From the IMG/VR virus record IMGVR_UViG_3300026519_000015, positions 1 through 59,882 of that record: 59,882 nucleotides of DNA; one strand, written 5' to 3'. The translations under genes were made by a program, and so were the position numbers. This DNA is from a virus. Each line of letters opens with the position of its first letter. Positions within the stretch are counted from its first letter, which is position 1. Below the pieces are notes generated by a model. The model saw only the letters and a list, made by a program, of their open reading frames with translations. It ran no database searches and was not told the DNA's origin. This document shows positions 3,001-59,882 of this stretch, piece by piece.

Positions 3001-5144
3001 GGCGCGGCTTTCGCCATCCAGGGCATATTCTTTAAGTTATCTCTAGTAATCGACTCAACAACACTGAGCCGCACATCCCCCATTTCCGCACCTGCAGCTA
3101 ACGCCGCTTTCGTCTTCTCCAGCCAATTAGACTCTTTTAACTTAACTCCCGCAGCACCTAACCCCATCGGGATCGCCATCCCGACTAACCAACCCGCGAA
3201 CCCGGCCACTAACCCTTTCGCCACAGCCTCTACCGGACTGGCACCAGCATACAGTTCGTGCCCGGCCGTGACTGCTGCTGCGTCTACTGCCCCCAGGGAA
3301 GCATAGACCGACATCGCCTCAACAGTGCTCTCCGCAAACGCCTTAGCCTCCAGCTCCGTAGCACCACGCCCGATAGCCTGCTGCTTAAACATCTCCGTGA
3401 ACTTCGGCTTCAAACCAGACTTCACCAAAACCGCATCCCCCGGGGCCCCCAGGGCTTCCTTAGCGCCCACAGCACCCGGCTTCGATAACAACCCGGCCTC
3501 CGGACCCAATAACGCCATCAGGGTTGTGGTACCAGCCAACATCGGGATCTCCATAGCCAAGCCGGCCACATTACCCATAGTTGCCCGCTTAGCATTCTCC
3601 CACGACCACTCTTTCTTCTTACCTAACGGATCCGTTACAGTCGCTTTCGCCCAACCCCAAAAGTCAAAATCCTCAATATCACCTTCCCCAGAACCCCGGC
3701 GGTCAGTCTGGATCTGCGCGAACTCCGGATCCCACCAATCCGTAGGAGCCATTGACATCGCAAGACTCCTCCAGGGCACCAGACCCCAAACCTTACTTAA
3801 CCCCTTAGCACCCATCGAGATCGCAGGGTCCAGAGGTGTGGCATAATCCTCTTTATTCCCAGTCAGGGGGTCCGCGTGAATCCCTATCTCCGGAATCCCC
3901 ATACCCGGCATCAACCCGGGAACAAAGCCGGCGGACTCCGAACGGTCACGCATAGCCTTAATGTTCTCCATCCGGGTTCCCGCCACATCACCCACAGCAG
4001 CCTGCTCTAATTGCTTCTCGATACCCGCACCCAGCAGGAAAACACCGGACGTCAACCCCCGCACGTAAGCCCGAGTACCCTCTTTTATATCCTGACCCTG
4101 GATCTCCATCGGAGACATGCCGGTCCGTAACGCCTTCTCCTCCAGCGCCTCCTCAGTACCCGGAACAATAAACGGCATCCAATCCTGGATATCTTTCCGG
4201 ATCCGAGCACGCTGACTCGCCTCTATAGGACCCCGGGTCCTGGCAATCGGCCCCACATTCTTCTTAAAATCAACCGCAACCTCGGACCCCGACACTTTTG
4301 GGTTGACATAATCCCGGGGAGCCGCGATCCACTTCATCGCTTCATCGTTCGTCACCCCCAAGATCCCCGCTACATACGGTAACGTTTGGGCATACCAGGT
4401 TGTGGGATCGTCAGACGGCGGATACTGACCGTTAGCTTCCGCATACTCTACCGCCTGACCACCCCCGTTATACGCAGCTAACGCCTTAGCCCAAGACCCA
4501 TCATACTTATCCAGAAGCCCGCGCAGGTGCTCCAGGGAGATATCGATCTGTACATACGGGTCCTCAATATAATCCTTAGCCTCAATACCACGTTTCTGAA
4601 GGTACGGGGCTAACGTCCCGGGCATCATCTGCCCAATCCCCAGGGCCCCCGCAGAAGAGGTCTTGATAGAACCATCCGGGTTATACGGCTCCATCCCACT
4701 CTCTTGCATCAATAACTTCGAATAAATCTCAGCATCACGATCATTAAAACCATGCGCCCTCGCTAACTTCGGTACCATATACCGAATCGACACATCACGA
4801 GGCTCCTCAGGACGACTCGGAACAGACGGCGCAGTCTCACGATACGACTCCGGGATATCCTGCTGATACGCCGGCGCGAACAACTCCTCCGGGTAAGCAT
4901 CATCCTCTATCACAGGAGGATCCGAAACACCCACAGTCTCCTCAGGAACCGGAGGATCCGGAGTATCTAGCATATTGACCGGAGAAACCTCGTCTATAGG
5001 AGACGGAATCTCGATAGGAGTAGGGGTTAATGCCGGGCCAGACTCCAAAGTATCCAGGGGTGGGATACCACGCTCCTGACGATCTTTCTCAAGAGCATCA
5101 CGCAACCAATCCATGTTCCCCGGGTCTTGAGGTGCACCCGCCAT
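1..5144 (-). CDS. giant ejection protein, N-terminal two thirds, with lytic transglycosylase domain (continues at 59882)
   Basis: The frame opens with ATG at 5144, which overlaps the upstream stop as TAATG. It stays open to base 1 and is in phase with the frame ending at 57328: 1,679 codons precede the Met at 107 (= 59862), giving about 2,523 residues after closure. Residues about 130-250 are a soluble lytic transglycosylase domain with MQESG (catalytic Glu about 148), SAGALGIGQMMP and ALAAYNGG. A Pro- and Glu-rich leader precedes it. Hydrophobic segments occur near residues 520-555 and 640-665, and a long Lys/Glu/Arg/Gln-rich, probably coiled-coil region spans about 750-1300. Domain, size and position after a gp15-like gene match the T7 gp16 role: an internal virion protein that is ejected, cuts peptidoglycan and forms a DNA conduit. 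The size is roughly twice that of gp16. The function assigned to the region beyond the SLT domain is inference. Confidence 0.9.
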   Translation of the reverse strand, partial: MAGAPQDPGNMDWLRDALEKDRQERGIPPLDTLESGPALTPTPIEIPSPIDEVSPVNMLDTPDPPVPEETVGVSDPPVIEDDAYPEELFAPAYQQDIPESYRETAPSVPSRPEEPRDVSIRYMVPKLARAHGFNDRDAEIYSKLLMQESGMEPYNPDGSIKTSSAGALGIGQMMPGTLAPYLQKRGIEAKDYIEDPYVQIDISLEHLRGLLDKYDGSWAKALAAYNGGGQAVEYAEANGQYPPSDDPTTWYAQTLPYVAGILGVTNDEAMKWIAAPRDYVNPKVSGSEVAVDFKKNVGPIARTRGPIEASQRARIRKDIQDWMPFIVPGTEEALEEKALRTGMSPMEIQGQDIKEGTRAYVRGLTSGVFLLGAGIEKQLEQAAVGDVAGTRMENIKAMRDRSESAGFVPGLMPGMGIPEIGIHADPLTGNKEDYATPLDPAISMGAKGLSKVWGLVPWRSLAMSMAPTDWWDPEFAQIQTDRRGSGEGDIEDFDFWGWAKATVTDPLGKKKEWSWENAKRATMGNVAGLAMEIPMLAGTTTLMALLGPEAGLLSKPGAVGAKEALGAPGDAVLVKSGLKPKFTEMFKQQAIGRGATELEAKAFAESTVEAMSVYASLGAVDAAAVTAGHELYAGASPVEAVAKGLVAGFAGWLVGMAIPMGLGAAGVKLKESNWLEKTKAALAAGAEMGDVRLSVVESITRDNLKNMPWMAKAAPAVTKWLNKFDELMVSAFPNADPEAVTFSGRILSKMKESFKLLQQLQRASALRNTRKELLEYAGNFRKTAQMYRTGVQKYLADIKRLQQQVIQVGKDLSQKVQQKPGLREADRALTASAELIDKTQQTINRARDVAHPRKDLGVDALSQDAELLKQLDITPEDIVEGGPDGKAIKKIQKYLNQLRAEQHQKLRDLDITPEEFQDYRKAKETFLGGKNQLTQMQMTEPYQKSDDYLKTADVFEHVGNRLERHAEVLDSLGSELPERVVLDPLQEFRGSEVPELWDAAVKHFDEALDSVVQNRLNFSQFPDRIGFESSKTVRMLLHSMSKDPDALYQVLVQAKQNAYENATKAFGAASRELKRTQRKIPELEKRASKMATQSPDTEWDIKKFGRGTEAVKEHNKALSVRKRTEKRITELSDKHTKLRNEVLPELKKRADKAQKEVKKAKYTKAKEQAKSRYTKYTDRVKRSEDRVNKARERLKAAEAGKGQKKIEHARKVLRNAEAAHKKLLSNPPKGVAVKGKPKITPEERAYQKALRYQKWLQEKIKAGKEAISDIDTRLPGLERDAWLARSQAMRDSWDRTVDRLQRRIELLKTREQKLQEQLPGLRDRATILGSDLAEVEGARLTATGATEQEALKGSEQLLQKSTIKTRLTARLLGLLDDVDGNQHLTSTLDPNAPPPPLIPTDGSPVDIGDPFAEATEIWRGMSPEDRTGLLLEEMWSLTDDYLDMAMPARKRVQEIKYDPSSLDTQSLIDGISSRWGYIPEQLGRALRILSRERAASELAATTALPVRDTAKGLLGALDRWVRSRFPASLQELVVKGENIWRDMVHQQEAGVDLAYTTASMLKDMFKVTLKGTDLLDSKGSLVPDVARKMVYAIQEMPYNTNKMTQFLEQYPNMRESLGSYFGVIQMLEEFKVASPELRSWFRDDGWFHIFPELSELYSRGRSAPGEFNPYLNPRLVTEAMRRIPTIEEAEKLYQNALKTLMTGTEKRTPDWGWT
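2..127. repeat. direct terminal repeat, left copy
   Basis: These 126 bases are identical to 59757..59882. The base just outside differs (t at 1, c at 59756). The repeat lies inside one open reading frame that continues in frame across the join. It is therefore best read as the overlap of a circular assembly (circularly permuted or closed genome) and not as a proven physical terminal repeat. Confidence 0.95.
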
Positions 5145-22367: not shown

Positions 22368-22468
22368 AACCCCCAGGAGGAGGCTACAAAAAAATCACAG
22401 AAACATAACCCCCACGTAGGAGGCTACACAAAAAAACCAGATCAACAACCCCACATAGGGGGCTACAT
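22368..22468. repeat. three direct repeats, period about 40 bp
   Basis: Units start near 22368, 22407 and 22447 and share aacccc..., a few variable bases, then agg(a/g)ggctaca. They are separated by A-rich spacers. On either strand each unit can fold into a small C/G stem. They could be iterons, protein sites or leader hairpins. Confidence 0.6.
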
Positions 22469-22581
22469 ACCTCCACCCATACCACATACATACACCTCCT
22501 TGCCCCCCTCCGCCCCCGGGCGCGCGCGTGGCCGTTCCGGGTGAGGGAACCTGCGCAGAGGGCCGGTCGTCCCACCCCCGC

Positions 22582-22599
22582 TTGAGGAATTTTCCTCAA
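22582..22599. repeat. perfect inverted repeat TTGAGGAA-tt-TTCCTCAA
   Basis: Eight-base arms with a two-base centre lie at the boundary where the GC-rich part begins. The symmetry fits an operator for a dimeric protein or a short hairpin. Confidence 0.5.
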
Positions 22600-22741
22600 T
22601 CCCCTAGGGTCGATTTTTCCTGCACCCCCCTGTCCCTGCCCCGGTCCTGTGGCCCATTGGAGCCTGTAGAGCTGGTTGACCCTGCCCCCTAGAGCTTGTG
22701 GAGCTGGTTGACCCCCTGGAGCTGGAGCCAGGGGGCGGATC

Positions 22742-23375
22742 GGTATACCACATTGCATGGTATACCGGTATACCGATCTGACACCCGGGGACCCGGTATA
22801 CCTGGTTGCCCCCTGGTGCTGAGGACCACCAGCTGCTACTACCCTGCCCCGTGGCCCGGGGAGTGATAGTAGGTAGTGCGTATGTGTGTGTGTGTGTGGG
22901 CTGGTGGTGTGTTTCCCCCGCCCTACAGCCCCGTGGCCCCCCTGGAGCTGGTATACCGATCAGCGTTGGGTATACTGGTATACCCGGCTGCCATTGTCCC
23001 CACAGAGCCTGACCCCCGTCCACCCCGCCCTGCCCGTGTAACCAGCTGGTTGCCCGGTATACCTGGTATACCCCAAAAAGCACCCGGGTACAGGGTTGGT
23101 GGGGGGCTGGATACGATCCCGGGGGTACAGGGGTACAGGGGGGCAGGAAGATCCCCGGGTTGATCCGGCAAGAGGATCCTGGGGCATCCGGGTTGGTAGA
23201 GCTAGTAGAGGGTAGAGCTGGTGTGTGTGTGTGAGTGAAAAGGAAAAGATCGTCCGGAGGAGGAGTAGGATCCGGGGTATACCGGTATACCGGGGATTTT
23301 GGGGGGCCGCGCGGCAAAAATCCCGGCAGATCAGGCGGATTTAGGTTGACACAGATCGGTATACTGCAGTATACT
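22742..23375. promoter_or_regulatory. cluster of GTATAC palindromes
   Basis: Copies of ggtatacc or close variants occur near 22742, 22759 (pair), 22793, 22951, 22968 (pair), 23057 (pair), 23274 (pair) and 23359 (pair, overlapping the -10 region of the early promoter). Pairs are usually two GTATAC separated by 2 bases (CG or TG), in a few cases by 3 or 4. Further pairs lie at 25270 and 25313 beside the second early promoter and at 22210 beside the leftward gene. The clustering at promoters suggests binding sites for a regulator or replication protein. Confidence 0.6.
23346..23375 (+). promoter_or_regulatory. early rightward promoter TTGACA-N18-TATACT
   Basis: TTGACA at 23346-23351 and TATACT at 23370-23375 form a consensus sigma-70/sigma-A promoter with an 18-base spacer. 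The palindrome GTATACTGCAGTATAC (23359-23374) covers the -10 element and adjoining spacer, as an operator would. Transcription would start near 23382. Confidence 0.75.
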
Positions 23376-23382
23376 AGATCCA

Positions 23383-24345
23383 GTGGATACCAATATGCAT
23401 ACGGGTGCATCCCCTGCACCCGCGGGGCGCCCGCCCCGCAGGGATACCCGACCGCCGATCCGATGGATCGGGGCATTTCGCGGTCTGCCAAGATCCGAGA
23501 TCGAATCCCTGGAGTGGGAATGCCGGCAGAGGCACACACAGGTGCCCGCGGAGGTACCTGCGTGGCGACAGCCCTATCGGGTACCCGCGGTCCTGGGGAT
23601 CGTGGCCCGCGTCGAAGACGTGATCCAGGCGTACGACCACGATTGTTGGTCTAGATCCCGTGGTGGCCGGCTGCACACGGACAGCTACCCCGCGGCATCG
23701 TTGGCGGCAGCCCGCAAAAAATCGGACCACTATTGTGAAGTATTCTTGCGCCGCGGATGGATCCCGCAGGGGATCGTGCTACGGCCCGTCGCCCTACGCC
23801 ACGGGGATCCTGCCAAGGTGGACGCCGTGATCCAATGGGCATACCAACGGGCCATGCCCGTGTACATCCTGCGCGGGGGCCGGGACCTGACGCCGTACGA
23901 CCCGCGGATCGTGGCGCGCAAGGCAGCCCGCCGGGCCCGACGGACCGCCCGCAGGGTAGCGGATCCCCAGGTGTGGACCCGGCGTCTACGGCACGATGCC
24001 CCCGTGTGGCCTGCGGCCAGGTATACCCATACCCCGGACACCACGTGGTACGCGGGGTCGATCCCGGTCGACACAATGCCCGCGATCGACGGCCGTGAAC
24101 GGTACCGGTGGCGGTATGGATACTGCCACGTAACCGATCGGTATGACCCGGCGTACCAGATCCCCCAGTACCCCGGCAACCCGATCCCGGATGCCGCGTG
24201 GATGGATGGCCCGTATTGGCGGGCCCCCTGGGTATGGTCCCGCGTGGGCCAGGCGGTCCGCAAGGCCTGTCCTGCCCCGGGTCGAAAAATTTTCAAGATC
24301 AATCCGAATCATCAGGAGGTGATAGCATGCCTACTGGGCATTTGA
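23383..24345 (+). CDS. first early gene, unknown 320-aa protein rich in Trp, Arg, Tyr and Pro
   Basis: The frame opens with GTG at 23383, right at the expected transcription start of the promoter at 23346. An in-frame ATG lies at 23395. There is no Shine-Dalgarno, so it would be leaderless. The product is basic with a central Arg-rich patch (ARKAARRARRTARRVADPQ) and an aromatic C-terminal half (ERYRWRYGYC, WMDGPYWRAPWVW). No family is recognised. The region is GC-rich and other frames are open as well, so coding status is likely but not certain. Hairpins at 23402-23439 lie at its very 5' end. Confidence 0.55.
   Translation: MDTNMHTGASPAPAGRPPRRDTRPPIRWIGAFRGLPRSEIESLEWECRQRHTQVPAEVPAWRQPYRVPAVLGIVARVEDVIQAYDHDCWSRSRGGRLHTDSYPAASLAAARKKSDHYCEVFLRRGWIPQGIVLRPVALRHGDPAKVDAVIQWAYQRAMPVYILRGGRDLTPYDPRIVARKAARRARRTARRVADPQVWTRRLRHDAPVWPAARYTHTPDTTWYAGSIPVDTMPAIDGRERYRWRYGYCHVTDRYDPAYQIPQYPGNPIPDAAWMDGPYWRAPWVWSRVGQAVRKACPAPGRKIFKINPNHQEVIACLLGI
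23402..23439 (+). other. two adjacent hairpins in the early mRNA 5' end
   Basis: CGGGTGCA-tcccc-TGCACCCG (23402-23422) is followed by GCGGGGCG-cc-CGCCCCGC (23422-23439). Both would form right after the promoter at 23346, either at the start of the 320-aa frame or as a structured leader if the frame is not translated from 23383. Confidence 0.55.
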
Positions 24346-24362
24346 CGCCTACGCGGGGATAG
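24327..24362 (+). CDS. 11-codon micro-ORF with a perfect Shine-Dalgarno
   Basis: AGGAGGTGAT, fully complementary to the usual 16S 3' end, stands 3 bases before ATG 24327. The frame MPTGHLTPTRG ends at TAG 24360-24362 and overlaps the end of the 320-aa frame. It could be a leader peptide for the following small genes or a remnant of a truncated gene. Confidence 0.35.
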   Translation: MPTGHLTPTRG

Positions 24363-24417
24363 ACAGGCGGAGGAGCCGCTGGATAAGTCGGTCCCCGACC
24401 TGTTAGATCCCCCTGTG

Positions 24418-24522
24418 TCCGGGTGTGGTCACCCGGATCGGATGACATGGCCGGCAATCCATGTCCGCATGCCAGGCGTCACTGGCGGGACCGCCCCCGG
24501 GGCCGGCGGAGGAGCCCCGGGG
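24418..24522 (+). other. two GC-rich stem-loops in the leader of the 65-aa gene
   Basis: TCCGGGTG-tggt-CACCCGGA (24418-24437) and CCCCGGGGC-N10-GCCCCGGGG (24495-24522). Neither has a U tract. The second ends 9 bases before the ribosome binding site of the next gene and may protect or gate it. Confidence 0.5.
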
Positions 24523-24543
24523 AAACCTAAAGGAGGACACAGC

Positions 24544-24741
24544 ATGTATATTTTATTTTGCAACAATATTTGGCGATATTGTATCGCCACACAGGACGAC
24601 TGGGACACGATTGTTCCGGTCGGGGAATTTAAGACATCGGATGAGGCCATCGAGGCGTGGATCCGAGAATGCAGCCCAGAGCACATGGACCGGATCCAGT
24701 GCCCCGCGGAGGGGTGGTACTATGCGTACCGCGGGGCTTAG
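24544..24741 (+). CDS. small early protein, 65 aa
   Basis: ATG 24544 is preceded by AAAGGAGGACACAGC, the leader used by many genes of this arm. The open frame reaches 43 codons further upstream, but that part crosses the hairpins and is not expected to be translated. The product begins MYILFCNNIWRYCIATQDDW and contains SDEAIEAWIREC. It is acidic, small and of unknown function. Such early proteins often inhibit host functions (inference). Confidence 0.7.
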   Translation: MYILFCNNIWRYCIATQDDWDTIVPVGEFKTSDEAIEAWIRECSPEHMDRIQCPAEGWYYAYRGA

Positions 24742-24759
24742 GATCGTCGGCACATTTTT

Positions 24760-24781
24760 CCCCGCCCTGGTGTGGGCGGGG
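24760..24781 (+). terminator. hairpin CCCCGCCC-N6-GGGCGGGG
   Basis: An 8-bp GC stem with a TGGTGT loop is followed by gtagtttt, a weak U tract. It lies 18 bases after the 65-aa gene. It is probably a leaky terminator. Confidence 0.55.
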
Positions 24782-24814
24782 GTAGTTTTAACCACACTTT
24801 AGGAGGTAGCACAC

Positions 24815-25099
24815 ATGCCATACGGACATACGATATCATGGGTCGTCATAGACGACACCCGGGCAGCGGACGTAACCCCTGTCCTCCGGCCGGAGGAGAT
24901 CCTAGGGGGCTACAGCCTCTGGGATCTCGCAGGGATCCTAGGAGATCAGCTCTACGAATATGTATGGACACACGGATCCCTGGATCCAGAGGACGCGGTA
25001 ATGATCGCCCGCAGACTAGATGACCCGGACGGCGCCTGGGTCTGCGCCTGGCGATCTGTCAACCCCTGGATCGCGCGCTGCCTGGAGCGCGTCCAGTAG
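24815..25099 (+). CDS. small acidic early protein, 94 aa
   Basis: ATG 24815 has TTAGGAGGTAGCACAC upstream. The product is acidic (pattern DDTRAADV, EEILGGYSLWDLAGILGDQLYEYV, SLDPEDAVMIARRLDDPD), a likely all-helical protein with a Trp-containing C-terminus. It is followed by a clear terminator at 25134. The function is unknown. Size and charge recall DNA-mimic anti-host proteins, but nothing specific supports that. Confidence 0.7.
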   Translation: MPYGHTISWVVIDDTRAADVTPVLRPEEILGGYSLWDLAGILGDQLYEYVWTHGSLDPEDAVMIARRLDDPDGAWVCAWRSVNPWIARCLERVQ

Positions 25100-25133
25100 C
25101 TCCAGCCCCCCACCGACCAACTTTCAGATTTAG

Positions 25134-25162
25134 GCCCCCGGTATCGTGCCGGGGGCTTTTTG
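25134..25162 (+). terminator. strong rho-independent terminator
   Basis: GCCCCCGG-tatcgtgc-CGGGGGC is followed by TTTTTG. It closes the first early transcription unit that starts at 23346. Confidence 0.85.
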
Positions 25163-25305
25163 ATGTACCCCCCCCCCGGGGATCCGGCACCCGGGTTGAT
25201 CGGGGGTCGACCGGGGGGCCCTGGCGAGGCCCTGCCGGAATCACCCGCACGACTTCGGGCACGACTTCGGGCACGACTGCGGTATACTGGTATACCTACA
25301 GGGGG

Positions 25306-25334
25306 TTGACAGGGTATACTCATACGGGTATACT
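25306..25334 (+). promoter_or_regulatory. second early promoter TTGACA-N17-TATACT
   Basis: TTGACA (25306-25311) and TATACT (25329-25334) are spaced by 17 bases. GTATAC sites flank and overlap it (25270-25284, 25314-25319, 25328-25333). Transcription should begin near 25341, about 5 bases before ATG 25346. Confidence 0.8.
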
Positions 25335-25345
25335 ATTAATACGAT

Positions 25346-25771
25346 ATGGATATCGCCCCTGACATAGATCTCATTGGCCTGGCCCTGGAGGGTATGGGTC
25401 TGATCGAGATCCTCATCACCCCCGGAGATGGTGATGTGTTTATGTCTTCCCCACAGGGTGATGTCTGGTGGGACGCCACGTCCCGGACCTGCGTCATTGA
25501 GGATGATGCAGAGCAGGAGGTAGCCACAACCTCCTGCCCCTCCGGGATGCATCCTGACACATTTATTGCAGCCGTGATCGCAGCTGTTGAAACTGCTGAC
25601 CAACACGGTATACCCCGTGTGGAGCTAGCCCCTAGAGGCGCCCACAGCCTCCACAACCTGGGATGGCACCTGCAGAATCACGCATACGATAACCGGGTGT
25701 GTTATGCCATCCAGGATGTCCGCACACAGGACCCAGCGCGGTATATGCGGTGGTGCAGGGATACGGATTAG
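25346..25771 (+). CDS. early protein, 141 aa, probably leaderless
   Basis: ATG 25346 lies about 11 bases after the -10 box, and no ribosome binding site fits in between, which suggests translation of a leaderless mRNA. The product is acidic in its first half (IDLIGLALEGMGLIEILITPGDGDVFM) with a helix FIAAVIAAVETADQHG and a His/Tyr-rich C-terminus. It has no known motif. As the first gene of the second early unit it may be one of the earliest proteins made. Confidence 0.65.
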   Translation: MDIAPDIDLIGLALEGMGLIEILITPGDGDVFMSSPQGDVWWDATSRTCVIEDDAEQEVATTSCPSGMHPDTFIAAVIAAVETADQHGIPRVELAPRGAHSLHNLGWHLQNHAYDNRVCYAIQDVRTQDPARYMRWCRDTD

Positions 25772-25811: not shown

Positions 25812-26246
25812 ATGGAAACCTACACATTTGACTATATAATTCCCTCCCGGGGATTAGTAACATCCCTATACCTGGAGGGAACTCATGTCCACATCCTCCG
25901 CCACCGAGGAGATAAAATACTGCTCCGGAAACAGTACCTCGGTGATATCCCCGGGCGGGTTGTGACCCCACACCAGAGACTCGAGGAAATAATCACCTGT
26001 CTCCTCGAGACCCATGACCCCCGAACCGAGGCGTGGAGGGAAGCTTGGAGCAATATGCTCCAGAGTCTCTGCTTGAGAGGGTACCCCGATCATATCCCCC
26101 TGGAGAAAATCCAAAAACTCCGAGAGGCGGGGAACAGCTGGGAGGATCTGGAGATCCGGCTGTCAGACCACAAAACCCGCTATTTTGCAGCGGATCTCCG
26201 GGAATATTTTTCCCCCCTACAGAATTACACCCGTGTTGACGACTAA
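25812..26246 (+). CDS. early paralogue pair, copy 1 (144 aa)
   Basis: ATG 25812 follows GAGGAAGGACACAAC. The sequence aligns along its whole length with the next gene: YTFDYIIPSRG, TSLYL.G.HV.IL.H.GD, KQYLGDIPGRVVTP, TEAW..AW..MLQ.LC.RGYP and SDH.TRYFAADLREYF. The N-terminal half is beta-rich and the C-terminal half helical and acidic. I do not recognise the family. Tandem duplication of an early gene suggests a host-directed or dosage role. Confidence 0.75.
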   Translation: METYTFDYIIPSRGLVTSLYLEGTHVHILRHRGDKILLRKQYLGDIPGRVVTPHQRLEEIITCLLETHDPRTEAWREAWSNMLQSLCLRGYPDHIPLEKIQKLREAGNSWEDLEIRLSDHKTRYFAADLREYFSPLQNYTRVDD

Positions 26247-26287: not shown

Positions 26288-26698
26288 ATGTATACATTTG
26301 ACGACATCACCCCCTCCAGGAACGGGATGCACACATCCCTGTACCTGTCCGGGAGCCACATTTCCGTCTTGGAGCACACGGGCGACAGCTGGCTCCAGGG
26401 GAAACAATATTTGGGCGATATCCCCGGGAGAGTAGTAACCCGACAGCAATCCCTAGAGCAGGCTATAGCCTGCCTCCTCGAGACGTACAAGCCAGGCACC
26501 GAGGCATGGGGACACGCATGGAGCGACATGCTACAGGGGCTCTGCTGGAGGGGGTACCCGGAGGAGGTCACCCTGGAGGAGATCCGAGACCTCCGAGAGG
26601 AGGGATACGACTGGGAGGACATAGCGGACCTCCTATCGGACCACGAAACCTGCTATTTTGCAGCAGATATCCGAGAGTATTTTGCTGCGGACCTGTAA
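26288..26698 (+). CDS. early paralogue pair, copy 2 (136 aa)
   Basis: ATG 26288 follows AAAGGAGGACACAGC. It shares LGDIPGRVVT, LLET..PGTEAWGHAWSDML-type helices and CYFAADIREYF with copy 1, at roughly half identity by eye. It is more acidic in the region EEVTLEEIRDLREEG. The two copies are 41 bases apart with the same spacing of ribosome binding sites, so the whole cassette including its leader was duplicated. Confidence 0.75.
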   Translation: MYTFDDITPSRNGMHTSLYLSGSHISVLEHTGDSWLQGKQYLGDIPGRVVTRQQSLEQAIACLLETYKPGTEAWGHAWSDMLQGLCWRGYPEEVTLEEIRDLREEGYDWEDIADLLSDHETCYFAADIREYFAADL

Positions 26699-28998: not shown

Positions 28999-29281
28999 GT
29001 ATAACGCTTGGAGAATGATTGCAGACAGTATTGTGGAGCACAACCCGGTACTCGTAACACAACCTCCCCAGGATCTACGGGCTCTTGAGGTATGGCTCCA
29101 CGCATGGGCACACTATACCTATCAAACCCTACCGCGATCCCTACCCCCAGTCTACCGAGACCTGACCGGGTTCAGTACCGCAGTAATCCGGGACAATATT
29201 CCAAAACTCGCCCCTATGGTTATGACCGCGATCCGGGACTATGGGTACTATGCAGACCGAGAGGTAACTCAGAATGTCTAA
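28991..29281 (+). CDS. early protein, 96 aa
   Basis: ATG 28991 lies 8 bases after GGAGG inside the end of the preceding gene. The product begins MLEYNAWRMIADSIVEHNPVL, followed by WLHAWAHYTYQTLPRSLPPVY and a C-terminal helix with YGYYADREV. It is helical with no known motif. The open frame extends 43 codons further up, in the shadow of the upstream gene. Confidence 0.6.
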   Translation: MLEYNAWRMIADSIVEHNPVLVTQPPQDLRALEVWLHAWAHYTYQTLPRSLPPVYRDLTGFSTAVIRDNIPKLAPMVMTAIRDYGYYADREVTQNV

Positions 29282-29930
29282 AAATCCTTACCTTCTAATT
29301 AGTCCCGGGATCCTTCGGGGTATTATGCGGTCCCCAAACCCTAGTACCCTCGATGAAAAATATATATATTGGCCAGAACTAATCCAAAAATACACCCTGC
29401 TATTTGGGGAACAGGAGCGCCAATTAGACCCAAATATGTTAGTGAAACTCCTGAACGCAGGATTAGGAGGATTGGCGTGTCCAGAATTGCAACCCCCGGT
29501 ACTTCAGAAGGTCGAGATCCTCCTGACCCAAATCCTGACACTCCGGAACCTCTGGATCCAGGAATCCAAATTTGAAGCCTGCACCCTGACCGGGAGTCTC
29601 GAACAATGCGACCTACACCATAGCACGTTTTCGGATCTCATCATCACATACTCCGCCGTGATCCGAGATACTAATATGCAATGCTGCAATTTATACAGTG
29701 TTGTTGCGAATGACTGTCTATTCGAGAATACCAGCCTGGATTCCGCAGTATTCGAACACGGGGTGTTTACATACTGCAATTTTAAAAACTGCTCCCTAAC
29801 AAACATCACATTCCTCAAGACCGCGTTCCGTGACTGTCGTTTCCGAAACTGTGACGTAACCGGGGCCAACTGGGAAACTACCCTCCTTGTGCAAACCTCA
29901 AAATTCCACAACTGCGCCGGATCACCTTAA
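29274..29930 (+). CDS. pentapeptide-repeat protein
   Basis: The product has 218 residues. From about residue 95 it shows the A(D/N)LXX-type pentapeptide periodicity in a degenerate Cys/Asn-rich form (CTLTG, CDLHH, STFSD, CNLYS, CLFEN, TSLDS, CNFKN, CSLTN, CRFRN, CDVTG, ANWET), which folds as a right-handed quadrilateral beta helix. The N-terminal 90 residues are helical. Several such proteins mimic DNA and protect or inhibit gyrase. Whether this one does is inference. It overlaps the upstream gene by 8 bases. Confidence 0.8.
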   Translation: MSKNPYLLISPGILRGIMRSPNPSTLDEKYIYWPELIQKYTLLFGEQERQLDPNMLVKLLNAGLGGLACPELQPPVLQKVEILLTQILTLRNLWIQESKFEACTLTGSLEQCDLHHSTFSDLIITYSAVIRDTNMQCCNLYSVVANDCLFENTSLDSAVFEHGVFTYCNFKNCSLTNITFLKTAFRDCRFRNCDVTGANWETTLLVQTSKFHNCAGSP

Positions 29931-41276: not shown

Positions 41277-42844
41277 AGACAACAGACTGGGAAAAAGCCG
41301 TCATATCCTGGTGTCTCCATAACCCGGATGACTTTGGATTCCTTGCAGATCGGATGAAGGAATTCCACTTCGGGGACCCTAGAGCAAAGATTGTGTGGAA
41401 ACCGCTCCTACAGGCTTACATAAAACACACTACATTTCCAACATTCTCCGAGTTAACCCAGATCCTGAATCAGGTGCAGACCGAAAAGGAACAATATACC
41501 CGGGCCCTCCTGGAGCAGTACCTGATTGAGGTATACCAAACCCCCCACACAGGTGTCACAGGAGACCGGGTAAAGGAATGGGTGGCTTCAAAAGAACTGT
41601 TCGACCTCGGGAACAAATTCATTGAGGTGTCGAGCACAGGGGTGACGGGGCACGAAGATGACCTGTACGGGTGGCAAGAACGTCTAGAATCAATTCAGTA
41701 TCTGGTTGGGAGGACAACCAAAGGCACAGTGTTCCGACCCCTGGACCTGGAGAGTATTGAGAACCTGGAGACCTGTATCGAACAGCATTACGGAGTGGAC
41801 CCGGTCCCGACTGGGATTTATAGACTAGACAAAAAACTCCGGGAGGGTGGGATTCGGGCACACCTGACAGTTATCTTTGGCCCTATCGGGACCGGTAAGA
41901 CCACTATCTCCCTGGGGATCGCAATGAATGTGATCCGGACCGGACGCCGAGTAGTCTACTTCTCACTCGACGACAACCCGGGGGAACTGACTGAACGTCA
42001 GTACAGTCATATGCTTAAGCGCCCCTTTTGCATCGATACAGAAGAAACCAACCAGACCCTGGAGGCAACTAAACAGGAACTCAAACACCTGATCGAAACT
42101 ACCTGGACCGGGGATTTTCACGGAGTCGAGCTGATGGCCGACACCACTACTCCCCACGAGATGGCTCGTGACCTTCTCAAGATGCAAAAAACTTTCTACG
42201 TCCAAGACCGAGAATCAGGGGAGGTTCCGGAATCCGAATGGGGGCAGATAGACCTTGTGGTGGTCGATACCGCCGACCAGGCTAAACCTCACAGGCATTA
42301 CCGATCTGAATGGTATGAACAAACAAAAGTATTCGAAGCCTTTAACGTGATCCCTAAGCGCCTGGGATGCCCTGTCCTGTTGAATGTGCAGGGTAACCAA
42401 CAATCTGTGGGTGCCGCACAACTAACGGAACGTAACCTCGGGGGCACCTATGGGAAGAACAAAGCTGCCAAACTGGTTCTGGGAATCGCCCAAACGTTTG
42501 CTCAAGTCCATAACCGAATCACCCTGGATCCTGGACACCCGGATATCCGAGATAATTTGGGGCGCTTACGGAACTACTGTCCGGAGCGTGACCGGGATAC
42601 TGAATGGGAGCGAGCCTGGATCTGTGTGGTAAAGAACACACGAGCCCGAGAAGGCGCGGGTGCTGTTCGGAGAGTCAAGATCCCGATCCTTATGAACCTG
42701 GCGACCTGTAGAGTTATTGATGATTTTACATTACCAGAGTCTGCAATCATGGTGGAACAACAAACCTTACGAGAGGAACAGGAGGTTGCGCGAGCGGGAG
42801 CCTCTGCGAGCCGACCGTCCGGTGGGAAGAGAGGACCGAAGTGA
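41273..42844 (+). CDS. DnaB-like replicative helicase
   Basis: The product has 523 residues. The frame starts with GTG 41273 (GAGG 9-10 bases upstream, GTGA overlap with uvsX). Residues 1-120 are an N-terminal helical domain. Residues about 195-420 form the RecA-like motor: GPIGTGKTT (Walker A), VVYFSLDDNP (H1a-like) and LVVVDTADQA (Walker B), then NVQGNQQ. It unwinds the duplex for the polymerase and works with the separate TOPRIM primase two genes downstream. Confidence 0.85.
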   Translation: MKTTDWEKAVISWCLHNPDDFGFLADRMKEFHFGDPRAKIVWKPLLQAYIKHTTFPTFSELTQILNQVQTEKEQYTRALLEQYLIEVYQTPHTGVTGDRVKEWVASKELFDLGNKFIEVSSTGVTGHEDDLYGWQERLESIQYLVGRTTKGTVFRPLDLESIENLETCIEQHYGVDPVPTGIYRLDKKLREGGIRAHLTVIFGPIGTGKTTISLGIAMNVIRTGRRVVYFSLDDNPGELTERQYSHMLKRPFCIDTEETNQTLEATKQELKHLIETTWTGDFHGVELMADTTTPHEMARDLLKMQKTFYVQDRESGEVPESEWGQIDLVVVDTADQAKPHRHYRSEWYEQTKVFEAFNVIPKRLGCPVLLNVQGNQQSVGAAQLTERNLGGTYGKNKAAKLVLGIAQTFAQVHNRITLDPGHPDIRDNLGRLRNYCPERDRDTEWERAWICVVKNTRAREGAGAVRRVKIPILMNLATCRVIDDFTLPESAIMVEQQTLREEQEVARAGASASRPSGGKRGPK

Positions 42845-43083
42845 TGGAAACAATCTATATCTACCCCATAGACAATAACCTGGAACAATGGCGTATCAAA
42901 ACCGATTACTCCCCGGAATTCAAAGCCGGGATGCGTCAGATACCGAGTGAAGACCGGTACTGGGATGCAACAAACCAATGGTGGGTATTCTCAGATTCCT
43001 GGTTAGAACACGTAGAGCAGAAAGTAGTGGAAGTCTGGCCGGCTACGAATATTGTGGTGGTGGAAGAATGTCCCGAGGATTAG
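42844..43083 (+). CDS. small protein, 79 aa, aromatic
   Basis: The start chosen is ATG 42844 with AGAGGA 8 bases upstream. GTG 42841 is an alternative. The product METIYIYPIDNNLEQWRIK... with RYWDATNQWWVFSDSW resembles the small N-terminal module of phage SNF2-like helicases seen at 30181. It may assist the helicase or primase. No family is assigned. Confidence 0.55.
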   Translation: METIYIYPIDNNLEQWRIKTDYSPEFKAGMRQIPSEDRYWDATNQWWVFSDSWLEHVEQKVVEVWPATNIVVVEECPED

Positions 43084-43835
43084 CGTTACCTACCGGGGGT
43101 CGCCGGTCAGGGAACGAAACCGTCTGGGATTGCCCTGCCTGCGGGGGAGTGCAAAAATTCTGGTTCAATACCCGGAACCACAAAGGTATCTGCTACCGAT
43201 GCAACACCCGGGTGGGAAACCATAAGTCCTTACTACGCTTATTCCGGAATCCCCCGACTGTTACGGTTGATATCGGTGACTACCCAAAGAAAATCGGGTA
43301 TATAGCGGATTCGGCCCACAGCGAACGCACTGCGGATGTGGAAGCTTACCTACGGAGCAGGGGTGTAAATACCCAGCTGGCTAACCAGATCCCGATCCGG
43401 CAACAGGGGAAACGGATTCTGTTCCCGGTATCCTGCCCTATGGGGCGACCGGATGAATGGATCTGGCGCCGGCTAGACCACGGATCCTGGATGGGACCCA
43501 AATACCCGAAAGGCTTGTACTGGTTTGGGCAGTGTGCCACGAAACACCCGGTGTTGGTCGAGGGTGTGTTTGACCTCCTGACTCCCGGGTTATGGGGACA
43601 CGGGTGGGCCTTACTGGGGACCAACTTAAGTGCACATTTAGAGTGTTGGCTCGCGGGACAAGACTTTGAAACCATAACGATTTGGTTCGACAACGACCCC
43701 CCGGGACGCCGGCGGGCTCAGCAACTCAAGAAACGCCTGAATGCCTGGATCGATACCCGAACCGTATTTGGGAAACCAGACACAGACCCGGGGAACTACA
43801 GCCCGGAGGAAGCAAAGAAGGTGCTGGGATGGTAA
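43068..43835 (+). CDS. DNA primase with zinc finger and TOPRIM fold
   Basis: The product has 255 residues from ATG 43068. The open frame extends 30 codons up, inside the preceding gene. The zinc ribbon has C22, C25, C42 and C45 (CPACGG, CYRC). TOPRIM elements are VLVEGVFD (Glu motif, about 162) and WFDNDPPGRRRAQ (DxD motif, about 205-214), with RPDEWIWRRLDHG between. It makes RNA primers for the polymerase. T7-type fusions carry a helicase on the same chain, whereas here the helicase is separate. Confidence 0.85.
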   Translation: MSRGLALPTGGRRSGNETVWDCPACGGVQKFWFNTRNHKGICYRCNTRVGNHKSLLRLFRNPPTVTVDIGDYPKKIGYIADSAHSERTADVEAYLRSRGVNTQLANQIPIRQQGKRILFPVSCPMGRPDEWIWRRLDHGSWMGPKYPKGLYWFGQCATKHPVLVEGVFDLLTPGLWGHGWALLGTNLSAHLECWLAGQDFETITIWFDNDPPGRRRAQQLKKRLNAWIDTRTVFGKPDTDPGNYSPEEAKKVLGW

Positions 43836-55445: not shown

Positions 55446-55991
55446 CTATCCGGCCAGACCGAAGCTTTGACTGTCATCTATAAGGCTATTTACTACCTGT
55501 TTAACATTTTCTAAGTCTACTCGCAACTTATTGACCTGATCCGCCAGGTCGGCAAAATTGTTCCGTAGCTCTGGTATTAAGTTTAACACAAGATCATCCC
55601 GGAGTGCATCAGCATCCACAGGCGCATTCGCGGGATCCGTCAATGCCTGAATGGTAGTATCCGGAATCCCTCCAGAATTGTCAGTCAATGTTGCGGAAGT
55701 CAGGTTATTCTGGGTGCGGGAAGCAGTTGCGTAGGTCTGGGTGTAAGCCGCAGCCTGGATCGTGGGGGTAACGTTGAAGAATCCTACATTGGACCCGTCG
55801 TGATTCAGGTCCCCATTTATCTCAAGATTCTCAACAACCGAATCCCCGGGGTTAACCGTAAAATTGCCCTGAACAGTTAACGCCCCTGTTATGGTCCCCC
55901 CGGTTTTATCTAACTTCGCGTCCAACTGGGCCTGCGCATCCGTTATCTCCAGGATCGAGGGTTCGCTACCAAATCCCGCACGCTGCGTCAT
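55446..55991 (-). CDS. fibre/tail protein, 181 aa, paralogous in its C-terminal half to 49955-50293
   Basis: The N-terminal half (ITDAQAQLDAKLDKTGGTITGALTV, VENLEINGDLNHDG) is a typical fibre segment. The C-terminal half aligns with the 112-aa protein (TQTYATASRTQ, LTDNSGG, DLADQVNKLR). The last helix suggests a trimeric coiled coil. ATG 55991 overlaps the ATP-grasp gene stop. Confidence 0.65.
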   Translation of the reverse strand: MTQRAGFGSEPSILEITDAQAQLDAKLDKTGGTITGALTVQGNFTVNPGDSVVENLEINGDLNHDGSNVGFFNVTPTIQAAAYTQTYATASRTQNNLTSATLTDNSGGIPDTTIQALTDPANAPVDADALRDDLVLNLIPELRNNFADLADQVNKLRVDLENVKQVVNSLIDDSQSFGLAG

Positions 55992-57331
55992 TCATCCTCA
56001 TCCTCATCTTCTTCCTCTTCTTCTCGTAACACCGACACAGGATACAGATCCATCTCCCATAACGGATCCGGTTCCACAAGGGCCTGCACAAACGGAATCC
56101 TGCTGCTCTGGAGCTGATTCCGCACCTCCACAAGTGATTCCAGATATGTAGCACCCTTACCCGTCAAGTAACCAACTGTAGGGTGGATTATCTCATACCC
56201 ACCTTGCCGATCATCCCGAACACCTGCCCAATAAATATTCGGCTCCTGGCGAGTTATTTGAGGATCCGGAGGTAAACACTCCTGCACCAACTTCCGTTTC
56301 TGTTCCTGCGATAACCACCGGGCTTCGGTCAATGGGTACGGTGGCACTGTTAACTTCCGACTAGAGACATGCCCTACCCAGAAATCATACGGATTATCCG
56401 GTCTACGGGGGTTCAGGAGCCGGTCCAGGAAAAAACTAAACGATATCTCCAGACCCCGCAGAAAACACGCCCAAAACCCGTCTGGCGCTGTTAGGGAAAA
56501 ATTCGTGCAACACAACCGGCTACGCCAATCCGTTTCCGCAGACGGTGCCTCCACCGTACACCCCAGAAATACCGGGCCCACATAACCCATATTGCTCAAA
56601 CTCGGAACTAACTTCTTAAGCGTCATCCCGATTATACGGTGCCCGGACGGGATATTCTGGATCGTCACACCCTCAATAGTCGGGATCCCCATACCACCTG
56701 GTAAGAACCCACTACTTACTCGGAACCCCAGACACGGATTCATCAAGCCTCTTGAGTTCACAAACCCGCATAACCAGAACTCCGAACTCAGCTGCAACTG
56801 GTTATCCGCAAGACCGGGGAAATCCCGCATCAGAGCAAACCGCTGAGGAACCTTATTGTTCGCCTCCAGGGTCTCGAGGTAAATCTGTAACTGCACCTCA
56901 TCCGGAAACGTCTCAGAACTACAATCACTGCACACCATACGCCACGGGTGCGCCCCACACTGCACATACTCGCAAGCATCCGATACATCTGTGAATTCCT
57001 GGTAATCACAAGTCGGGATACCGGCAGCATCTAAGAAATTGATCGCAAACAGATAATCTTTCTCTATCCGGGAGGCTAACGGTATACTCCCGACAACAGG
57101 AACTCCTGCCTCTCGGAACCGTTTTGCCGCAGGCCCCAATCCTGGTTGATCCACCAACACAACTTCCGGCTCCCAGCTTAACGCATCCCCAAGGCTCCCA
57201 ACACGATTGACAAGCCCATCCCATACCCCCGTGTTGTACTTACTCAGGAGCGCAACCTCATTACCCTCACGAGTTAACTGATCCAGTAAAAACGCGTGCT
57301 TTTCGTCACGACTCAGTAATAATACCTTCAT
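55988..57331 (-). CDS. ATP-grasp protein resembling PurD (phosphoribosylamine-glycine ligase fold)
   Basis: The product has 447 residues. The N-terminal 120 residues follow the PurD N-domain: MKVLLLSRDEKHAFLLDQL, VVLVDQPGLGPAAKRFREAGVPVVGS, then RIEKDYLFAINFLDAAGIPTCDY at the start of the ATP-grasp region. GGMGIPTIEGV and GYVGPVFLGCTV-like segments follow, and the C-terminus ends in an acidic run of Glu and Asp. It sits between the giant ejection protein and fibre genes, not among nucleotide genes. It may ligate an amino acid to something in the virion or act on the cell wall. The reaction is unknown. Confidence 0.65.
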   Translation of the reverse strand: MKVLLLSRDEKHAFLLDQLTREGNEVALLSKYNTGVWDGLVNRVGSLGDALSWEPEVVLVDQPGLGPAAKRFREAGVPVVGSIPLASRIEKDYLFAINFLDAAGIPTCDYQEFTDVSDACEYVQCGAHPWRMVCSDCSSETFPDEVQLQIYLETLEANNKVPQRFALMRDFPGLADNQLQLSSEFWLCGFVNSRGLMNPCLGFRVSSGFLPGGMGIPTIEGVTIQNIPSGHRIIGMTLKKLVPSLSNMGYVGPVFLGCTVEAPSAETDWRSRLCCTNFSLTAPDGFWACFLRGLEISFSFFLDRLLNPRRPDNPYDFWVGHVSSRKLTVPPYPLTEARWLSQEQKRKLVQECLPPDPQITRQEPNIYWAGVRDDRQGGYEIIHPTVGYLTGKGATYLESLVEVRNQLQSSRIPFVQALVEPDPLWEMDLYPVSVLREEEEEDEDEDE

Positions 57332-59882
57332 TTATTCCGCCACCCCGGAGTCTTGACCCGCACCTTAGAAGCCCGTTTCTTCCTCTCCTGTTTCCGCTTC
57401 TTCAGCATTTGAGGAACCCGACCCTGAAGAGTTTTGCGCATATTCCGAACTGCTCGTTCGTACTCCAGTTTTCTACCTTCCGACAAACTCTCAATCGTGA
57501 CCCCAAACGCCTCCATCCGTTTCGCGATCACTAACGCGATCTGATCCTCCGTAAGCCTAACTTTATTCCCGGGGTAAATCCCAATCCAATTCTCATGACC
57601 GCCCTCACCCCATACATCAGCACCCGTAGCGGCTAACTGCAACGCCCGGTCCAGACCTTCCGGATCAGACCCCGAGAGCCAACTGTCGATCATAGGATTA
57701 ACCTGGTCCAGTAAATCATTCACATTGTCTTTCTCAATCATCGACAGCCAGGCTTTTTCCTGTAGATACGGGTTATTCTTACCGATCTGGACACCCGCCC
57801 AACCCGCAAGGTACTCACTCAATTGCCGGGATTGGGCCCCTACATACGGATAAACAGACTGCCCGAATACTTCCTCGATTGTCGTGCCCGCTATCGCACG
57901 CAGCACATAACGCCCCATCTTGAGCGCCTGGTACGCCTTCATCCTGGGGTCCAAAGACCGGTCCCGGTTATACACAGGTCTTCCGGGGCGATACCGATCC
58001 CGGTTAGTCGCGATATCCATCAGGACAGGCCCAAACCCACTCACCTGACTCGATACATAACGGCCCGCAATCTCGGTATCCAGCACCGCCCCCGATAACC
58101 GCACCGGATCCTTATACATCCCCATGAAAGGAATTGTGACGTAATTCGTGGGTGATAACTGAATATTCGCAATATCGTTCGGGTTATTCCACTGGTACTG
58201 AAAATATTTCCCCGGATCCCCCGAAGCAATAGCAGCGAACATACCCCGGTCACTCACGATCCATTCCAGCACCTGTTTCGCTACGAATCCGGTCGTCATC
58301 GCAGTCAACAACGCTTTCTGGTACTCACCACGCAGATTCTTCGCCAGCACAGGATCCCGGACATGCCACAAACTCCTACCTAAAGGTGAAAGCAACATAG
58401 TATCCACTTTGGCTCGGAACCAACCCGGAGTCTTGGCATGCACCATCGTTCCCATTAAACCCTGGCCATACAGGTACTCATCCAGGGAAACACCACCAAT
58501 TACTATTTTTTGGTAATGGTTCAGGGATCCGGCCATCTTGTTGACGTAATCCGCGGCTTCTCTCCGCACCTCCCGGAATGCTATCTCGAACGGGACACCT
58601 CCGCTCATCAACTTCTGACCCCAGTTTTTCCAATGCACCGCGGTCCAGTAATGATACCCGGCAAAAATAGCTTCCTTGATAGGGTTAAATGTAACGAACT
58701 TATTCATCAGGAGATCCGTGTTATACGCGATCCCCCCAATGTTTGTCTCCTTATTCCGCCACATCTCACCCAACTGACGGAATGATTCCGCCTGTTTTGT
58801 GGCTTTCTCAAAAGCCCCCTCGGGTTTCGGTTTTAACTCCGAGGAATTCATCTCTAGTAATCGTTCCTGGATCTTAAGCGCGGTTTTGGCGAAATTATTC
58901 CACGTCTCCATATTGGCGCCACTCAGGATCGCATCCGTCCGCAAAGCCTGCCCTGCTTCCAGACCACGCCGGCCAGCTCCCGCAACCCCGAAAGCATCTA
59001 CCGGGGCCGACACAAAATCCAGAATCCCGCCCCCGAGATTCTTAATCCGCTCCTTAAAAGACCCAGGACCGAACACCGACTTAAAAATCGTCTGGAGCGC
59101 GGTTTTGGAAAAATTAAAGTAAAAATCACTCAGAATATTGACCGCATGATGCACCGGACTACCCGAAAGCTGCGCTAACCTTGTCATCTCGATAATACCC
59201 ATCGCCTCCGGGTTAGTCGCGTTCGGGTCAATATCAAATCGTGCCTTAAAGGCTTTCGCCATCTCGGGGTGCATGTAGACGTGCTTCGCCTCTACTTGTT
59301 TCCCCTTAATCGTCAGGACCGAATCCGGTGCCATCCCTAACCCCGTGTCCGGGCTCGATAACGATATATAGTACTCACCCGTGGACATATCGTCCCCCAC
59401 AGTCCCCAGGGTCCGGGCTAACGGGGGGCTCCCGGATTCGTTCACCATCACCATTGTGATCGGTTCCTCAGCCCCCACCATATTCGGTACCTTGACGCGT
59501 GCAGCATTCGATATCGCCTGCCGCACTGAATCCGCCTTAATAGTAGACCGGATTTGGCGCTTCACTACCTCTACAGGGTCCAGAACCGGATTCCCCAACG
59601 ATAAATGCATCTGGACCCTGGCGATATTCCGCAGGATCTTATCCCGCGCTTCACCACGAAACTCTTCCGCACTATACCCTAAAACTCGCGCCCTTTGCTC
59701 ATCAGTAGCGGCCTTAAACAACTTTGCTCTTTGGGCAGGGGTATTGGTCGCTTTCCGGGTCCAGCCCCAATCCGGGGTCCGTTTTTCGGTACCCGTCATC
59801 AGGGTCTTGAGCGCATTCTGATACAGCTTCTCCGCTTCCTCAATCGTAGGGATACGACGCATCGCTTCCGTGACTAATCGAG
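57328..59882 (-). CDS. giant ejection protein, C-terminal third (continues from base 1)
   Basis: From the Met at 59862 (first copy at 107) the frame runs 844 residues to TGA 57328-57330. Because the frame from 5144 stays open to base 1 and both share the terminal repeat in phase, these are one protein of about 2,523 residues. This part is largely helical with a Lys/Arg-rich end (KKRKQERKKRAS) and stretches typical of large phage virion proteins (FNPIKEAIFAGYHYWTAVHW, LPFIGMYKDP-like). It overlaps the ATP-grasp gene by ATGA. The base at 59756 differs from base 1 (R versus Q/H codon). Confidence 0.85.
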   Translation of the reverse strand, partial: RLVTEAMRRIPTIEEAEKLYQNALKTLMTGTEKRTPDWGWTRKATNTPAQRAKLFKAATDEQRARVLGYSAEEFRGEARDKILRNIARVQMHLSLGNPVLDPVEVVKRQIRSTIKADSVRQAISNAARVKVPNMVGAEEPITMVMVNESGSPPLARTLGTVGDDMSTGEYYISLSSPDTGLGMAPDSVLTIKGKQVEAKHVYMHPEMAKAFKARFDIDPNATNPEAMGIIEMTRLAQLSGSPVHHAVNILSDFYFNFSKTALQTIFKSVFGPGSFKERIKNLGGGILDFVSAPVDAFGVAGAGRRGLEAGQALRTDAILSGANMETWNNFAKTALKIQERLLEMNSSELKPKPEGAFEKATKQAESFRQLGEMWRNKETNIGGIAYNTDLLMNKFVTFNPIKEAIFAGYHYWTAVHWKNWGQKLMSGGVPFEIAFREVRREAADYVNKMAGSLNHYQKIVIGGVSLDEYLYGQGLMGTMVHAKTPGWFRAKVDTMLLSPLGRSLWHVRDPVLAKNLRGEYQKALLTAMTTGFVAKQVLEWIVSDRGMFAAIASGDPGKYFQYQWNNPNDIANIQLSPTNYVTIPFMGMYKDPVRLSGAVLDTEIAGRYVSSQVSGFGPVLMDIATNRDRYRPGRPVYNRDRSLDPRMKAYQALKMGRYVLRAIAGTTIEEVFGQSVYPYVGAQSRQLSEYLAGWAGVQIGKNNPYLQEKAWLSMIEKDNVNDLLDQVNPMIDSWLSGSDPEGLDRALQLAATGADVWGEGGHENWIGIYPGNKVRLTEDQIALVIAKRMEAFGVTIESLSEGRKLEYERAVRNMRKTLQGRVPQMLKKRKQERKKRASKVRVKTPGWRNK
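59757..59882. repeat. direct terminal repeat, right copy
   Basis: Identical to 2..127. See the left copy. If this is an assembly overlap, the closed genome is 59,756 bp. Confidence 0.95.

Follow-up and report, generated by a model that had tools for sequence, protein, structure and literature searches.

The gene at 55988-57331 of the window (the whole stretch of viral DNA analyzed here, that is, all 59,882 nucleotides of IMG/VR record IMGVR_UViG_3300026519_000015) appears to encode a far-diverged, most likely noncatalytic member of a PurD-derived branch of phage ATP-grasp proteins, kept for structure or binding. We assign this reading a probability of roughly 0.6. The following features of the window are referred to below:

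55988..57331, minus strand: PurD-like protein of predicted ATP-grasp fold, 447 amino acids, active site lost
56929..57331, minus strand: residues 1 to 134, pre-ATP-grasp domain and first ATP-grasp part, the recognizable PurD-like portion (family-profile hmmsearch, hhalign)
56852..56956, minus strand: residues 126 to 160, where the family has a lysine, a glycine-rich loop, and a second lysine site; the loop is deleted here
55991..56026, minus strand: acidic C-terminal tail, REEEEEDEDEDE
57328..57331, minus strand: ATGA overlap between the PurD-like gene and the giant ejection-type gene (same -4 overlap in 117/203 relatives)
57328..59882, minus strand: C-terminal part of the giant ejection-type gene, whose N-terminal part, with the SLT lytic transglycosylase domain, is at 3-5144
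55446..55991, minus strand: fiber-like gene, in ATGA overlap with the PurD-like gene

The gene is open, coupled to its neighbors, and part of a virion module

The frame runs for 447 codons from 57331 to 55988 on the minus strand, which the original prediction had left unstated while giving the right coordinates; the plus strand carries many stops there. Codon usage scores 0.60 in this frame, compared with 0.59 to 0.63 in the giant gene and 0.32 to 0.43 in the other five frames, and resembles that of the adjacent virion genes. At each end the gene shares ATGA with a neighbor, its start with the stop of the giant gene (57328) and its stop with the start of the fiber-like gene (55991), confirming the predicted place between the two. 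The Glu/Asp tail noted in the prediction is indeed unusual for PurD: D or E make up 11 of the 15 C-terminal residues, compared with a maximum of 7 in PurD and 8 in the phage family described below. Only 2 of 141 relatives come near this count, and the tail was treated as peculiar to this phage, not as a family trait.

The minus-strand virion module also encodes a terminase, a portal (SU10_portal, 1.4e-12), a capsid protein, a virion structural protein (phrog_3287), a weak GNAT match, and the giant protein, which has SLT transglycosylase and internal-virion-protein matches. The two record ends (1-127 and 59756-59882) share a 127-base overlap with a single mismatch, so that the giant gene, of about 2,500 amino acids, crosses them. 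The same overlap indicates that the 59,882-base genome is probably complete and probably circularly permuted. As predicted, no other purine gene was found among the window proteins scanned.

Elsewhere in the window, the segment at 22400-25500, at the strand switch, is rich in G+C (0.61 to 0.64, versus about 0.52), with GC skew near zero and open reading frames spread over many frames, none convincing as a gene. The adjacent open reading frames 25812-26246 and 26288-26698 are tandem paralogues that have KQYLGDIPGRVVT and other segments in common. A pentapeptide-repeat protein is encoded at 29274-29930 (Pfam Pentapeptide_4, 2.5e-12); some pentapeptide-repeat proteins mimic DNA.

The protein resembles PurD over a short stretch and is predicted to have an ATP-grasp fold

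The PurD resemblance is well above chance and limited to residues ~61 to 135. The NCBIfam purD model (TIGR00877) matched residues 69 to 129 at 3.1e-9 and 36.2 bits, against a cut-off of 288 bits; PDB PurD chains matched at 6.5e-5 and Pfam GARS_A at only 0.016. Both the GARS signature R[LF]GDPEx[EQ] and the metal-site motif EFNxR are absent. An AlphaFold model built with the family alignment had a pLDDT of 51 (low confidence), with residues 1 to 165 mostly at 60 to 84, residues 282 to 446 below 50, and the C-terminal third unmodelled. In Foldseek, the top PDB matches of this model were GAR synthetases (E = 8e-14, TM = 0.45), followed by PurK, Ddl, and LysX; this fold evidence is not fully independent, since the model used the family alignment. 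By overall fold, the low-confidence model places the protein in the ATP-grasp superfamily. The fold comparison suggested in the original prediction was thereby borne out, with GAR synthetases first. The claim of a PurD-like ATP-grasp protein stands for ancestry and fold and falls for the ATP-binding residues, which are missing.

The window protein probably belongs with a large family of phage PurD-like proteins

Single-sequence scans of IMG/VR with the window protein, the window terminase, and the window giant protein returned no relatives. The sole relative among GenBank phages is a 443-amino-acid open reading frame at 42140-43471 of MW202796.1 (L002:19875-21206), a circular genome from Manatee Spring; it is missing from the GenBank annotation and lies in the virion module as in the window phage. 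With the single-sequence scans empty, this frame served as the bridge to the other relatives. Iterative searches from it gave 49 contigs and then 42 (a partly overlapping set), and the family has at least 546 loci in IMG/VR by such searches; a more distant subgroup of 75 also emerged. Three more distant relatives come from phage-like contigs that had been assigned to metagenome-assembled genomes of Methylococcaceae, Elusimicrobia, and Armatimonadetes; each of these genomes also holds a true PurD, and the binning of phage contigs is no proof of host. PurD matches in several records labeled as phage (Y11, SA 1306 Kay, and a fecal scaffold) were set aside: these proteins exceed the cut-off and are true PurDs, and the unverified records that contain them are most likely bacterial DNA. 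They served solely for PurD comparison.

PHROGs lacks the family and was of no use for either the window protein or its relatives, and BFVD lacks it too, holding distant ATP-grasp proteins only. The openly searchable literature yielded no account of a PurD-like protein encoded in a virion module. The family is unnamed, has no named function, and is in none of the phage family libraries searched.

Identity of the window protein to the family is only 20 to 27%, and the collections searched hold no close relative. Nevertheless, blastp aligned residues 1 to 261 with one member (L210) at 27% identity (1.6e-14), hmmsearch with the family profile matched residues 32 to 135 (E = 4e-10), and hhalign gave 5e-12 over 253 columns with the family profile versus 6e-9 over 67 with PurD. 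In the tree, the protein lies near the family on an extremely long branch (5.7) with an attachment support of only 48/65, and this placement was dropped as proof. Profile comparison and genomic place favor kinship to the phage family over direct kinship to PurD, a point that the tree does not settle.

The family is distinct from PurD and has an invariant active site

The family profile matched PDB PurD structures over nearly the full length (E = 1e-20), and PurD was the first structural match of a predicted model of the relatives. With TIGR00877, however, relatives score 49 to 101 bits and true PurDs 290 to 628. The signatures RFGDPE and EFNxRFGD occur in 25/25 PurDs and 0/141 relatives, and the phage proteins form one clade apart from PurD (support, 100/99). 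By these sequence comparisons, the family is a phage-specific paralogue branch of PurD and not PurD itself.

We compared 204 distinct full-length proteins drawn from the matches listed. Lys139, Glu185, Lys208, Glu271, and Arg275 (L093 numbering) are invariant in all 204, position 146 is Lys or Arg in all 204, and Asp256 is kept in 202; some search patterns contained E185, E206, K208, K209, or R275, so that those columns are partly selected, whereas no printed pattern included K139, K146, D256, or E271. Three members (L342, L345, and L350) carry inserts of ~300 amino acids, intein-like at their ends, in the conserved TGExGT loop, the substrate loop. The insert loci are L342:6421-8769, L345:4864-7134, and L350:6390-8663, with two slightly different insertion points, and a LAGLIDADG-like domain is significant in two inserts and weak in the third. 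Conserved active sites are known seats of inteins, and given this habit the inserts fit an active, constrained enzyme. The relatives are plausibly ATP-driven ligases, as their invariant active-site residues suggest.

Genomic place is conserved as well. Of 203 relatives, 193 have an open reading frame on the same strand that terminates no more than 300 bases upstream, and in 149 of those it is at least 400 amino acids long, many contigs being cut; 117 of the 203 have the 4-nucleotide overlap with the upstream gene seen in the window. The gene behind often opens with a PPIPxxxIxExxxWRxWF-type motif, in fiber-type genes, and other neighbors include a stabilization protein, GNAT, a glycine-rich protein, and ejection-type proteins (MW202796.1 annotation and open reading frame layout). 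The gene order of the window is the same by class of gene. Because blastp found almost no similarity, in short pieces only, between the other virion proteins of the window and those of the relatives, what is shared is gene order by class and not a set of homologous neighbors. The conservation of this place across a large phage family argues that placement in the virion operon is no accident, and the predicted assignment of an ATP-grasp-fold gene to the virion module is upheld by relatives that mostly lie directly behind a large ejection-type gene. The window terminase matched only two phages, both of which lack a PurD-like gene. A phage with a related terminase and no PurD-like gene (MW202637.1) has a putative amidoligase annotated outside the virion module (L005:10638-12692).

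The window protein has lost the family's active site

At the family sites, the window protein has Ser for K139, nothing for K146, Glu for E185 (E184), Ser for K208, and Phe for D256; E271 and R275 have no secure match. A deletion spans the glycine-rich loop and Lys146. The loss is also visible without alignment, since there is no Lys at residues 92 to 159 and no Gly at 127 to 172. The family motif was not found in other frames of the gene, ruling out a frameshift that hides the active site. Residues retained at family-conserved structural positions are G39, W53, D61, G76, P78, E184, G189, G215, Y250, and G252, and the C-terminal third is hardly alignable to the family. The fold has most likely been kept and catalysis lost. 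Of the original prediction, then, the fold holds and the catalytic part fails: the ATP-binding residues that it proposed to check are absent, and without them the ATP-grasp ligation that it proposed is unlikely in this phage, which lacks the active-site lysines, the loop, and the metal-site Asp.

Competing explanations

The short span of the curated PurD matches, residues ~69 to 129, could be taken for chance similarity over a Rossmann-like stretch. Such a coincidence is very improbable: residues 1 to 270 match the phage family, coupling and place are the same as in that family, and GAR synthetases are the top fold matches, even if the model's use of the family alignment makes these not fully independent. 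We consider it equally far-fetched that the gene is an auxiliary metabolic PurD raising the supply of glycinamide ribonucleotide. PurD is the best match in curated libraries, but the score lies below even that of the relatives and far under the cut-off, the PurD signatures are absent from the relatives and from the window protein, no other purine gene was seen, and the gene sits between ejection and fiber genes. The score, the missing signatures, and this place also bear out the original view that the protein does not serve ordinary purine synthesis.

The main rival, which we regard as unlikely, is that this phage no longer has a use for the enzyme and that its gene is drifting toward death, its product having no function. 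The loss of otherwise invariant residues, the very long branch, and the poorly alignable C-terminal third would all fit, as would the facultative nature of the gene, which is absent from the two phages nearest by terminase. However, 447 codons remain fully open with normal codon usage, both ATGA couplings are intact, and structural residues are retained at many family-conserved places. Somewhat less probable again is a protein that still binds ATP or another ligand through replacement residues and carries out the ligation first proposed. The predicted fold, the retained E184 (the Glu conserved in the second half of the ATP-grasp), and the invariant active site of the relatives speak for it, but both lysines, the glycine-rich loop, and the metal-site Asp are missing, and the stretch at 92 to 159 contains no lysine.

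Under the preferred reading, a noncatalytic member kept for structure or binding, the ancestral protein would have been an ATP-grasp ligase made together with ejection and fiber proteins, as the fold, the invariant active site, and the operon place indicate. This ligase, like the relatives, may have joined a carboxylate to an amine on a virion protein or on a target met at infection. The window lineage would then have lost the phosphate-holding lysines, the glycine-rich loop that covers them, and the first metal-site aspartate, while retaining the reading frame, translational coupling, the N-terminal domain, and several structural glycines. For the giant ejection protein or the fiber, the folded domain would most likely serve as a factor in binding or assembly, its synthesis being coupled to that of both neighbors.

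A wider and more tentative proposal is that freshwater, peat, and soil tailed phages possess a widespread PurD-derived virion-operon ligase that may attach a small group to an ejection or fiber protein or to a target on the cell surface, and that in the window lineage it has become a structural or chaperone-like virion part devoid of catalysis. Hundreds of environmental phages carry a PurD descendant at a fixed place between ejection and fiber genes; with an invariant site targeted by inteins, it points to an undescribed ATP-driven step in building or using the particle. The apparently dead copy in the window is a natural control that separates a catalytic role from that of a folded part.

Comparison with known systems

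Phage proteins of ATP-grasp fold have been described before, and in the searchable papers none is PurD derived or encoded in a virion operon. LUZ24-like and Pa11 podophages carry ATP-grasp and amidoligase genes; in UFV-P2, ORF28 (291 amino acids) lies in the early module with an amidoligase and a glutamine amidotransferase (PMC3890496, PMC6209634), whereas the window gene is in the virion module. R2K ATP-grasp ligases occur in jumbo phages, where peptide or protein modification has been proposed (PMC7824862). All of these share with the window protein the ATP-grasp fold in a phage and belong to other branches, a separation drawn from published descriptions.

PurD (TIGR00877, PF01071/PF02843) has domain order and fold in common with the phage family and resembles the window protein over residues ~61 to 135. 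The family differs in lacking the RFGDPE, EFNxRFGD, GPNTGGMG, and DHKR motifs, in having Asp256 and Thr273 where PurD has Tyr and Asn, and in scoring far under the equivalog cut-off; the window protein additionally lacks the ATP-binding core. The other close system is the phage PurD-like family itself. Like the window gene, its members follow a large ejection-type gene and precede a fiber-type gene with an ATGA overlap, are mostly 435 to 450 residues long, and have an N-terminal GL(V/I)xRV with a Trp soon after. In contrast, their active site is invariant, whereas the window protein has lost it; its acidic tail is also longer than theirs, and its C-terminal third has diverged.
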